This document shows, one piece after another, positions 21,027-36,241 of a stretch of 64,000 nt of DNA. Each line of letters begins with the position of its first letter. Positions within the stretch are counted from its first letter, which is position 1. Location: positions 124,001 to 188,000 of the forward strand of contig CAJOCL010000003.1 in assembly GCA_905233565.1 (NCBI GenBank), in the 5' to 3' direction. This DNA comes from an uncultured Synergistales bacterium (GTDB lineage: Bacteria > Synergistota > Synergistia > Synergistales > Aminobacteriaceae). The position numbers and the translations under genes are program-made. The notes under the pieces were generated by a model, which was not told where the DNA came from, did not search any database, and saw only the letters and a program-made list of their open reading frames with translations.

Positions 21027-21054
21027 TTATCGGCGGATTTTTTGGTTAATATTA
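21027..21054 (-). promoter_or_regulatory. Sigma-28 (FliA)-type promoter of fliD
   Basis: On the minus strand a perfect GCCGATAA -10 element (21034 to 21027) is preceded, after 16 bp, by TAAT (21054 to 21051). The sigma-28 consensus is TAAA-N15-GCCGATAA. It lies about 40 bp before the fliD start and overlaps the lysA stop codon. Confidence 0.75.
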
Positions 21055-22338
21055 GAGTGTCTGACCCCTTATTAAATCTTTCATGCTCTGACGTTCGCAG
21101 ACAATTCTTGATTTCCCGTCTTCAGCAAAAATTACTGCAGGTCTGGGCAGACAGTTATAGTTGCTTGACATGCTGAAGTTATAAGCTCCCGTGTTGAACA
21201 AAGCGATAACATCACCTGCTTTTACTTCCTGAATTTCAGCGTCATCAATCAAAATATCGCCCGACTCGCAGCACTTCCCGACGATTGAGACCTTTCCGCC
21301 TGATTTATGATGATATATAGCCCCGTCAGTGTCATCAACTTTTACGGCGTTGTATTCAGCCTGATAAAGGGCAAATCTCGGATTGTCAGTCATTCCTCCG
21401 TCAACGGCAATATAAGTTATTTCGGGAAGTTCGCGGACGTTTTCGACGGTATACAGGGTTATGCCGGCTTCGGAGACTATCCAGCGTCCTGGCTCAAGTA
21501 CAACTCTTGGAATTTCAAGGCCGTATTTTTTGCAGTTGTCAATCAGCGCATTCATCATCGCATCCGTATAAAAAGCTGATTTCATGGCCGGGATTTTAGG
21601 GTTTATGACGGCCCCGAATCCGCCGCCCATGTTAAGCTCATTAACGGTGAAATTGAGATTGTCTTTCAGCCCCTTCATTAACTCCGAAATTTTTTCGATT
21701 GATTTTATGTAATCATCAGTATCAAAAAGCTGTGAACCTACATGAAAATGAAGACCGCGAAGATTAATATATTTGCTGCTGACCGCGTATTTTACGGCTT
21801 CGCTTAACATTGAGCCTTCACGGTAATCGGCAGGGACTCCGAATTTGCTGTCGGTCTGGCCTGTAGCAATATACTTGTGTGTATGTGCATCAACGCCGGG
21901 CGCAACACGAATCGTAACTTTCTGAACAATTCCGGCTTCTTTCGCGTAATTCTCAATAATTTTCAATTCGTCAGGATGATCAACGATTATTCGTCCGACC
22001 TTTGAATTTATTGCATATTGAATTTCTTTATGGCTTTTAGCGTTGCCGTTCATTTCGATTCTTTCGGGCGGAAAATCCGCGCTCAATGCCGTATAAAGCT
22101 CGCCCATTGATACAACGTCAAGCCCCAAGCCCTCGTCAGCAATTAATTTTGCTATTGCTCTTGTCAAAAATGCTTTTCCTGCGTAACGTACTCTTGTATT
22201 CTCCCAGCGTTTAAGGAACGTTTCAGAAAGTTCCCTGCACCTTGCCTTTATCATTCCCGAGTCGAAAACGTAAAGCGGTGTGCCGAATTTTTCTGCTAAT
22301 TCGCGGCAGTCAACGCCGCCCCATGTTAAACGTGAAAT
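21052..22338 (-). CDS. lysA: Diaminopimelate decarboxylase, probable AUU start
   Basis: A PLP enzyme that decarboxylates meso-diaminopimelate to lysine. YAGKAFLT holds the PLP lysine. HFHVGSQLFD, ELNMGGGFG, EPGRWIV and CCESGD (catalytic Cys) are family motifs. The first standard start codon is ATG 22254. However, 28 further in-frame codons upstream encode the conserved family N-terminus (GGVDCRELAEKFGTPLYVFD), which forms part of the barrel. That frame has no ATG, GTG or TTG. It opens after a stop at 22356, and the only plausible start is ATT at 22338, preceded by GGGGAG with 7-nt spacing. The full length would be 428 residues. The fliD promoter overlaps its stop codon. Confidence 0.9.
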   Translation of the reverse strand: MSRLTWGGVDCRELAEKFGTPLYVFDSGMIKARCRELSETFLKRWENTRVRYAGKAFLTRAIAKLIADEGLGLDVVSMGELYTALSADFPPERIEMNGNAKSHKEIQYAINSKVGRIIVDHPDELKIIENYAKEAGIVQKVTIRVAPGVDAHTHKYIATGQTDSKFGVPADYREGSMLSEAVKYAVSSKYINLRGLHFHVGSQLFDTDDYIKSIEKISELMKGLKDNLNFTVNELNMGGGFGAVINPKIPAMKSAFYTDAMMNALIDNCKKYGLEIPRVVLEPGRWIVSEAGITLYTVENVRELPEITYIAVDGGMTDNPRFALYQAEYNAVKVDDTDGAIYHHKSGGKVSIVGKCCESGDILIDDAEIQEVKAGDVIALFNTGAYNFSMSSNYNCLPRPAVIFAEDGKSRIVCERQSMKDLIRGQTL

Positions 22339-34512: not shown

Positions 34513-35649
34513 TCAGCGATTCCCTAGAAATCTGTCAAGTGCTGCCCCAATTTCAACGCATATCGGGAGTTTTATATCATTCCCGTAAAGATAACCGCAA
34601 ATTCCTTCAAGGCCTTCAAAACTCTCATAATTCTGCGAAAAAACAAATAATATTTTTTTATCGCTGTTCTCAAGGCACCTGCGTTTTACCTCAAGGCTGT
34701 GCAGGGAGTTTTCACGGGACACTGCCGAAACCTTAACAATGAACGTCTCATCTTCTCCAAGATGCTCAATGATTTTTGCGACACTGCCCAAGATTTTAGC
34801 TTCAGGGAACAATTCCTTCATTTTTTCCCTGAGTTCCTTAGTACGGGCGATAATATACGGCCTGCCCAAGTTATAGACTCTGCAAAGTTCATTAAGCCCC
34901 GAGAGGTTAATTTCTTCATTGTCCGCGATTACTGCAACATTCACACCTGAAATGTATTCACGCAGCGATGCACGTGATAACAAATCCGGCCTCCGTGAAA
35001 GTGTCCTTTTTACTGCCTCTTTTCTGCGCCAGCGCGATATTTCATGCCCGTTTCCGCTTAACAGAACTTCCGGAACGCTCATATTCTCCCATAATGCCGG
35101 ACGGGTGTAATTCGGGTTATCCAGCATTCCGCGATAAAATGAGTCCTCAATTACTGCCTTTGTCTTTCCGACAACTCCAGGAACAAGCCTCGACATTGCA
35201 TCTACAATGAGCATTGCGGGAATTTCACCGCCCGTAAGAACGCAGTCCCCTATACTGACTTCAAGATCTACGTACTTTTCGACAAAGCGTTCGTCTATTC
35301 CCTCGTAATGCCCGCAGATTATTATCACGTGTTCCTGGTGCGAAAGCGTCTCGATTATCTCCTGACTGATTAACACTCCCTGAGGAGACGGGTAAACTAC
35401 GTAAGGCCTTGCGCCTTTATATCCGGCTGCGGCGAAGTCCAACGCATCTTTCAACTGTGGAGCTGCGAATAACACTCCGCCCGAACCAAACGCATAATCA
35501 TCAAGTTTCTTGTAGTTACCTCTTCCGAAATCACGGAGATTTACGGGATTTACGCCGACAAGTCCTCCTGATACAGCACGTCCCGGAATGCTTGTATGAA
35601 GAAAAGCCGCGAATAATTCCGGGAATGCCGTTATTATGCTTACGTTAAT
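34513..35649 (-). CDS. trmD: tRNA (guanine-37-N1)-methyltransferase fused to a TM1570-like domain, probable AUU start
   Basis: A SPOUT methyltransferase that forms m1G37 in tRNA. Motifs GHYEGIDERF and SIGDCVLTGGEIPAMLIVDAMSR are intact. The first standard start (GTG 35475) would delete 58 residues, including the family N-terminus. The same frame continues up to ATT at 35649, giving NVSIITAFPELF, with GAGGA 6 nt before it inside the end of khpA. No ATG, GTG or TTG exists in that stretch. The usual YGGGxGM loop reads FGSGGV. The last 145 or so residues resemble a second SPOUT-like domain (NLSGLNELCRVYNLGRPYIIA), encoded separately next to trmD in Thermotoga (TM1570). Total length is 378 residues. 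Confidence 0.9.
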   Translation of the reverse strand: MNVSIITAFPELFAAFLHTSIPGRAVSGGLVGVNPVNLRDFGRGNYKKLDDYAFGSGGVLFAAPQLKDALDFAAAGYKGARPYVVYPSPQGVLISQEIIETLSHQEHVIIICGHYEGIDERFVEKYVDLEVSIGDCVLTGGEIPAMLIVDAMSRLVPGVVGKTKAVIEDSFYRGMLDNPNYTRPALWENMSVPEVLLSGNGHEISRWRRKEAVKRTLSRRPDLLSRASLREYISGVNVAVIADNEEINLSGLNELCRVYNLGRPYIIARTKELREKMKELFPEAKILGSVAKIIEHLGEDETFIVKVSAVSRENSLHSLEVKRRCLENSDKKILFVFSQNYESFEGLEGICGYLYGNDIKLPICVEIGAALDRFLGNR

Positions 35650-35651
35650 GG

Positions 35652-35894
35652 CTAGTCCTCTACTATATCGACTTCAACTCGCTCTCCGGCCTTGACTGCT
35701 GCCGCTTTGGCCAACAGCCGGATAGCGTTGATCGTGGCCCCCCTCTTCCCGATTACTCGCCCCACGTCCTCATGGGCAACCCGAATCAGGATCTTACTCC
35801 CGCCGTCTTCTTCCTTCTCTTCAACCCCAACAGAGTCAGGCTGAGTAACAAGGCGTTTGACGATAAACTCTACAAGCTCTTTGTAATTGACCAT
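35652..35894 (-). CDS. khpA: KH-domain RNA-binding protein KhpA
   Basis: A small cytoplasmic RNA-binding protein of 80 residues with one KH domain. The GxxG loop lies in GRVIGKRGATINAIR. It usually pairs with KhpB (Jag) to bind RNA. The start at 35894 has AGGAGGTGCC upstream, a strong ribosome site. It sits between rpsP and trmD, the usual place. Its last codons also contain the ribosome site of the AUU-started trmD, 2 nt before that gene. rimM, which normally lies between khpA and trmD, is absent. Confidence 0.93.
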   Translation of the reverse strand: MVNYKELVEFIVKRLVTQPDSVGVEEKEEDGGSKILIRVAHEDVGRVIGKRGATINAIRLLAKAAAVKAGERVEVDIVED

Positions 35895-35971: not shown

Positions 35972-36241
35972 TTACTGAGCTTCCTTAGTGCTGAACTTCT
36001 CCCAGATTCCCTGCTTCTTCAAAAGCCCGCGCGCCGTGTCTGAAGGGATTGCTCCATTCTTCAGCCAATATAAGGCCCGCTCCTCGTTAATATTCACTGA
36101 AGCCGGATCCGTCATGGGATTATACGTCCCTATAAGCTCTATAAACTTACCGTCTCTCGGTGAACGCTCATCAGCTACAACAAGCCTGTAAAAAGGAGCT
36201 TTCTTCCTGCCCTGACGCGACAAACGAATCTTTACCGCCAT
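35972..36241 (-). CDS. rpsP: 30S ribosomal protein S16
   Basis: A small-subunit assembly protein of 89 residues. The N-terminus [24 protein letters not shown] is the family signature in slightly varied form. The middle [14 protein letters not shown] and the end [16 protein letters not shown] are typical. The start has AGGAGGTGC upstream. It follows ffh by 34 nt and precedes khpA, matching the widespread ffh-rpsP-khpA order. Confidence 0.97.

Follow-up and report, generated by a model that had tools for sequence, protein, structure and literature searches.

Natural bacterial genes with a known AUU or AUA start are few. The infC gene is reported to start at AUU in E. coli, AUC in Streptomyces and AUA in S. 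aureus (PMC5472188, PMC13009471), and for the AUU start of E. coli pcnB a limiting effect on output is stated in the title of Binns and Masters 2002, cited in PMC13009471. The non-canonical GUC start of Streptomyces sigR is described as repressed by IF3 (PMC5472188). In S. aureus, cvfC1 (AUU) and ccpN (AUA) are given a reporter output of about 10% of that of AUG, with up to 30% for ccpN (PMC13009471). For lepA of two species an AUU start has been put forward (PMC1780047). Concerning trmD, the E. coli protein is described as about 40-fold less abundant than RpsP and RplS, which are encoded on the same transcript, a difference attributed to a strongly structured mRNA around the start of trmD (PMC8643618, PMC3121790). 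The literature searched contained no report of trmD starting at AUU nor of non-AUG starts in Synergistetes, and mazG, lysA and hemC with AUU or AUA starts were not found in general searches on non-AUG starts. Near-cognate starts are already known; what is unusual in the genus described here, which consists of uncultured gut bacteria of the Synergistales, is the number of genes and their retention throughout the genus.

The window analysed in this work is the whole stretch of 64,000 nucleotides. Its minus strand carries, in this order, rpsP, a gene for a KH-domain RNA-binding protein, trmD and rplS. The rpsP gene for S16 (35972..36241) starts with ATG, and its congeners carry the 8-nt Shine-Dalgarno sequence AGGAGGTG. 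The TAG (35654-35652) of the KH gene (35652..35894) ends 2 nt before the ATT (35647..35649) which is the putative start of trmD, the gene for the essential tRNA (guanosine(37)-N1)-methyltransferase (34513..35649; 378 aa counted from ATT). A Shine-Dalgarno-like GAGGA (35656..35660) is found 6 nt 5' of this ATT, within the last codons of the KH gene. The trmD frame (34513-35673) extends just 8 open codons 5' of the ATT, and ATG, GTG and TTG are absent between the in-frame stop and a GTG (35473..35475) located 58 codons into the gene; a start at this GTG would cost the protein 58 residues. The coordinates, the spacing of the GAGGA and the 58-residue loss reported in the initial annotation were all correct when the sequence was read again. 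The protein is composed of a SPOUT domain (approximately residues 2-226) and a C-terminal extension of about 145 aa (34513-34950), which matches no Pfam model and is possibly related, as a guess, to the second domain of longer TrmDs such as the 436-aa 8b1n chain. The last gene, rplS for L19 (34115..34474, named by eye), starts with TTG behind a strong GAAGGAGG, and trmD is not the sole gene of the operon with a non-AUG start.

The proposal that trmD starts at AUU is upheld by the comparison with homologous genes. When the AUU product was used to search genome contigs of named genomes, 80 trmD loci were matched, and in the column of residue 1 a canonical codon was present in 72 of them (ATG 69, GTG 2, TTG 1). 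The remaining eight carry ATT in four cases, three of this lineage and one directly after an ATG, and CTT, AAA, TTA and ACG in the others, which by eye lie directly after ATG or GTG. Residue 3 of the solved TrmD 4mcb aligns with residue 3 of the AUU product. The same product matches both NCBIfam TrmD models over their full length, from profile position 2, and passes their cut-offs, with 256.0 bits for NF000648 (cut-off 220) and 242.1 bits for TIGR00088 (cut-off 195). Its predicted N-terminal peptide is MNVSIITAFPELF or NVSIITAFPELF.

Within the genus, trmD was detected in 32 of 37 genomes, including that of the window, and 28 of these genes align from residue 1, with ATT in 27 and ATA in one (G004). 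Four are divergent: at the front of the gene G024 and G036 have ATA and lack any canonical codon, in G014 a TTG is found a few codons upstream, and the start in G018 is ATG. A pattern search of 43 genus genomes gave ATT in 31, ATA in one (G004) and ATG, GTG or TTG in none; the 11 unmatched genomes include the four divergent ones, G007, G008, G017, G021, G027 (in which trmD was not found), G061 and G064. The position of the ATT at the conserved start column can be taken as confirmed at the level of sequence, as a real position and not a chance one. Two other Ile codons of trmD, in columns 5 and 21, are nearly as constant (the same codon in 26 of the 28 members), so that the constancy of the ATT is, when taken alone, weak evidence for a start or for selection for a weak start. 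Among the 28 aligned genes an ATG occurs eleven codons in for six members and a TTG for one, and G013 has a TTG two codons in; some members of the genus could start trmD at these early internal codons.

The initiation region of trmD is weak compared with those of its neighbours. Preceding the ATT or ATA, the Shine-Dalgarno match is of 3-4 nt in 27 of 28 genus members (at least 4 nt in 27 and 3 nt in one), the commonest spacings being 6 and 7 nt. The match is of 7-8 nt in all 25 readable rpsP genes of the genus, which all start with ATG, and of 8 nt in 23 of 24 KH genes, with ATG. Predicted mRNA structure over 70 nt at the trmD start (mean -11.6 kcal/mol) is slightly stronger than at KH (-7.7 kcal/mol) and rpsP (-10.8 kcal/mol) and is not distinctive. 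The start column of trmD shows a single change (ATT to ATA) among 28 species; one T-to-G change would turn the ATT into ATG, and this is seen in none of the 28. In the 16 species shared by both genes, for which lysA start states were assigned by eye and unclear species omitted, the start column requires six changes for lysA and two for trmD.

The explanation which we consider, as a whole, quite probable is that a weak but conserved AUU start throttles TrmD within a ribosomal-protein operon. Initiator fMet-tRNA would be placed at the near-cognate AUU with the help of the short GAGGA that lies within the last codons of the KH gene, and initiation would probably be coupled in part to termination at the adjacent KH stop. 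TrmD synthesis would be lowered in this way relative to S16 from what appears to be the same transcript. Sensitivity of this start to IF3 is very likely, judging from the Streptomyces and S. aureus papers, and selection would maintain the weak start. The AUU would have arisen in the lineage that lost the 30S maturation factor gene rimM from its former place between the KH gene and trmD. The explanation is favoured by the single loss of rimM, with the rimM-bearing, ATG-starting G018 as sister, and by starts of the same type in mazG and lysA. In E. coli gene, operon type and proposed outcome are the same, but there the start is AUG with inhibitory structure, while in the genus AUU with a short Shine-Dalgarno would do the job of the mRNA structure. 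This points to different means in the two bacteria of keeping TrmD low within a ribosomal-protein operon.

The other known cases compare in part. Like trmD, infC is a housekeeping gene of the translation apparatus with a conserved near-cognate start; unlike TrmD, a tRNA methyltransferase, its product IF3 represses its own gene. An output limited by AUU would be common to pcnB and trmD, which are different genes, and was measured for pcnB, while for trmD we infer it. The start of sigR is, as proposed for trmD, a genus-conserved non-canonical start which holds a protein below its operon partner, but the codon is GUC, and IF3 repression has been shown for sigR and is only presumed for trmD. The starts of cvfC1 and ccpN are likewise AUU or AUA conserved in the genus; these genes have extended Shine-Dalgarno motifs, as opposed to the 4-5 nt of trmD. 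The TTG of rplS indicates that low output does not necessarily follow from a non-AUG codon, and the AUU of trmD may be merely tolerated.

The latter reading, in which start-codon selection is relaxed in the genus and AUU or AUA drift in as tolerated codons without a regulatory role at trmD, is the most serious alternative, although we regard it as unlikely. It draws on the absence of the 30S maturation factor gene rimM, which by two independent models was not found in 36 of 37 genus genomes (the exception being G018) and is present in all 24 other members of the order. In each of the 25 genomes which have rimM, the coordinates put it immediately 5' of trmD. In the TrmD tree a branch (98/90) separates the rimM-less genomes from the others, and G018 is adjacent to them. 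The trmD of the rimM-bearing G018 starts with ATG, and from this and its tree position we place the loss of rimM and the departure from ATG on the same or on neighbouring branches. As the loss is a single event, the correlation has no replication, and the TTG of G014 indicates that loss of rimM is not always paired with AUU. The loss of a 30S maturation factor throughout a genus, with rbfA being kept, is worth noting in its own right.

Relaxed selection is also favoured by the use of AUU or AUA in several unrelated genes and by the swapping of the lysA start among ATT, ATG, TTG and GTG. The second AUU start proposed in the window, that of the diaminopimelate decarboxylase gene lysA (21052..22338, minus strand; TIGR01048, 427.9 bits), was confirmed by comparison with congeners: the column of its ATT (22336..22338) carries ATT, ATG, TTG or GTG in the genus. 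A canonical start is missing altogether in four of 22 members (G000, G004, G009 and G022), all with ATT; others have ATG, TTG or GTG. Such an exchange at one column is difficult to account for unless the ATT serves as a start. The lysA start is less certain in G001, G006 and G023, in which an ATG is present upstream of the Shine-Dalgarno sequence.

The strongest second candidate for a near-cognate start is mazG. Eleven of the 24 genus members lack any canonical codon from the in-frame stop to at least 48 codons into the conserved core, and by inspection these genes have ATT in eight cases and ATA in three; in G024 only AAA, ATT and CAT lie between stop and core. The likely starts of the remaining genes are ATT, ATA or TTG, with ATG in G018. 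A GTG five codons into the core, which could serve as a start, is present in six of the 24, and nine of the 24 (including G018) have some canonical codon further upstream. In hemC the species of the window has ATA, and its relatives have mostly TTG, with some ATG and GTG.

The initial annotation supposed from trmD and lysA that AUU starts are used more widely, and a scan blind to the start codon bears this out within limits. It was based on codon usage only, listing genes with a coding signal of at least 15 codons before the first ATG, GTG or TTG, without seeking near-cognate codons, and it covered the window and 20 stretches of 20 kb (464 kb, approximately 23% of the 2.02 Mb genome). Seventeen of 352 genes with closed 5' ends were listed, and the four with the highest scores were hemC, trmD, mazG and lysA; the 13 below them had scores of at most 5.0. 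Further candidates thus exist in mazG (ATT) and hemC (ATA), and near-cognate starts are shared within the genus, but they are a minority, with four of 352 genes or about 1.1% in this sample (rough Poisson range 0.3-2.9%), and comprise AUA as well as AUU. In G019 the same scan gave mazG and trmD as two clear cases among 193 genes, and in the outgroups G038, G044 and G048 one clear case (the infC ATA of G044) among 271 genes; the difference between genus and outgroups is small and would not be significant at these counts. A fourth outgroup, G049 (GC 0.65), was dropped, as 22 of 82 came from antisense frames. The genus, with trmD, mazG, lysA and in one species hemC, offers a comparative set for studying how much start selection tolerates and whether dosage is the reason for retaining weak starts.

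What speaks against relaxed selection is that drift should also yield ATG, yet none occurs at the start column of trmD or mazG in the rimM-less clade. The machinery of start selection also looks ordinary: the IF3 of the genus has merely five near-fixed, conservative differences, the initiator tRNA of G010 has the usual three G-C pairs, ksgA is present in the window and rbfA in 58 of 61 genomes. No cause of AUU tolerance was found among these four. The gene for IF3 itself, infC, starts with TTG in all 16 genus members read; in the 14 Synergistales read from outside the genus (L141-L149, L151-L153, L157 and L160) it always starts with ATA, which typically follows GGAGGTGA. Neither infC nor rplT was found in the window's own genome; as infC is present in 22 of the 24 congeners searched, we regard this as a gap in the assembly. 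Since non-AUG initiation is described as raised without KsgA (PMC7897474), 30S maturation may reasonably be linked to start selection; no comparable effect was found for RimM in the literature searched. A combined account is rather improbable. It supposes that loss of rimM in the ancestor of the genus removed the gene before trmD and at the same time loosened start-codon checking, so that AUU and AUA became ordinary starts for several housekeeping genes, after which selection held trmD and mazG at weak starts. If true, the genus would be a natural lineage with a wider set of start codons, and the natural loss of rimM in any event offers a case for testing initiation fidelity.

It is very improbable that translation of trmD begins at a downstream canonical codon, here the GTG at 35475, and yields a shorter protein. 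GTG is a standard start codon, and the ATG eleven codons in could serve six of the 28 genus members. However, the 58 residues lost belong to the SPOUT fold, their codons are conserved and score as coding, and the GTG product falls below both NCBIfam cut-offs (201.4 and 189.8 bits). The first canonical codon is moreover found anywhere from 2 to 77 codons in, depending on the species. Rules which accept only ATG, GTG and TTG as starts would truncate or lose such genes. A fusion of the KH protein and TrmD, produced through a frameshift or through readthrough of the KH stop codon, is less probable still. The stop and the ATT are only 2 nt apart and the trmD frame of the window is open upstream of the ATT, but seven of the 28 genus members have an in-frame stop 1-2 codons before the trmD start, and the distance between KH stop and trmD start varies from 2 to 19 nt across the 28, as does the relative frame, which excludes fusion as a general route. 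That the ATT is an assembly or sequencing error of ATG, conceivable in fragmented genomes (metagenome-assembled where titles are known), is refuted by its recurrence with differing flanks in 31 genomes of the genus and has practically no probability left.

Other approaches to finding near-cognate starts were less informative. A test for enrichment at the start column in 225 ortholog families of the genus loci listed no clear further AUU gene; its automatic choice of column fell inside the gene for trmD and mazG, as many as 170 families were represented by just two genomes, and it was abandoned as a test. When late starts were flagged by homology, 100 genes out of the 518 whose 5' end is closed were marked; most of these were conserved leader or antisense frames, and the marked genes were excluded from the counts. 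An Hsp70-like gene of G030 (L267:13632-15287, minus strand), listed by the codon-usage scan, with a likely ATT start and its first canonical codon, a GTG, 17 codons further on, is a further AUU candidate. A frame of G010 (L250:7211, plus strand) looks coding for 150 codons, has no canonical start and carries an ATT near its front.

One candidate, SelD, proved false, as an in-frame UGA lies upstream of its conserved part, which from knowledge of the family we take to be selenocysteine. The selD genes of L220 and L245 both have this probable selenocysteine codon just 5' of the conserved part and are adjoined by a selB-like gene, of which the copy in L220 looks frameshifted and contains N. A pyrH-like frame (L222:17686-18244, plus strand; named by eye) seems to begin in the middle of the gene, which suggests an indel or assembly error upstream.
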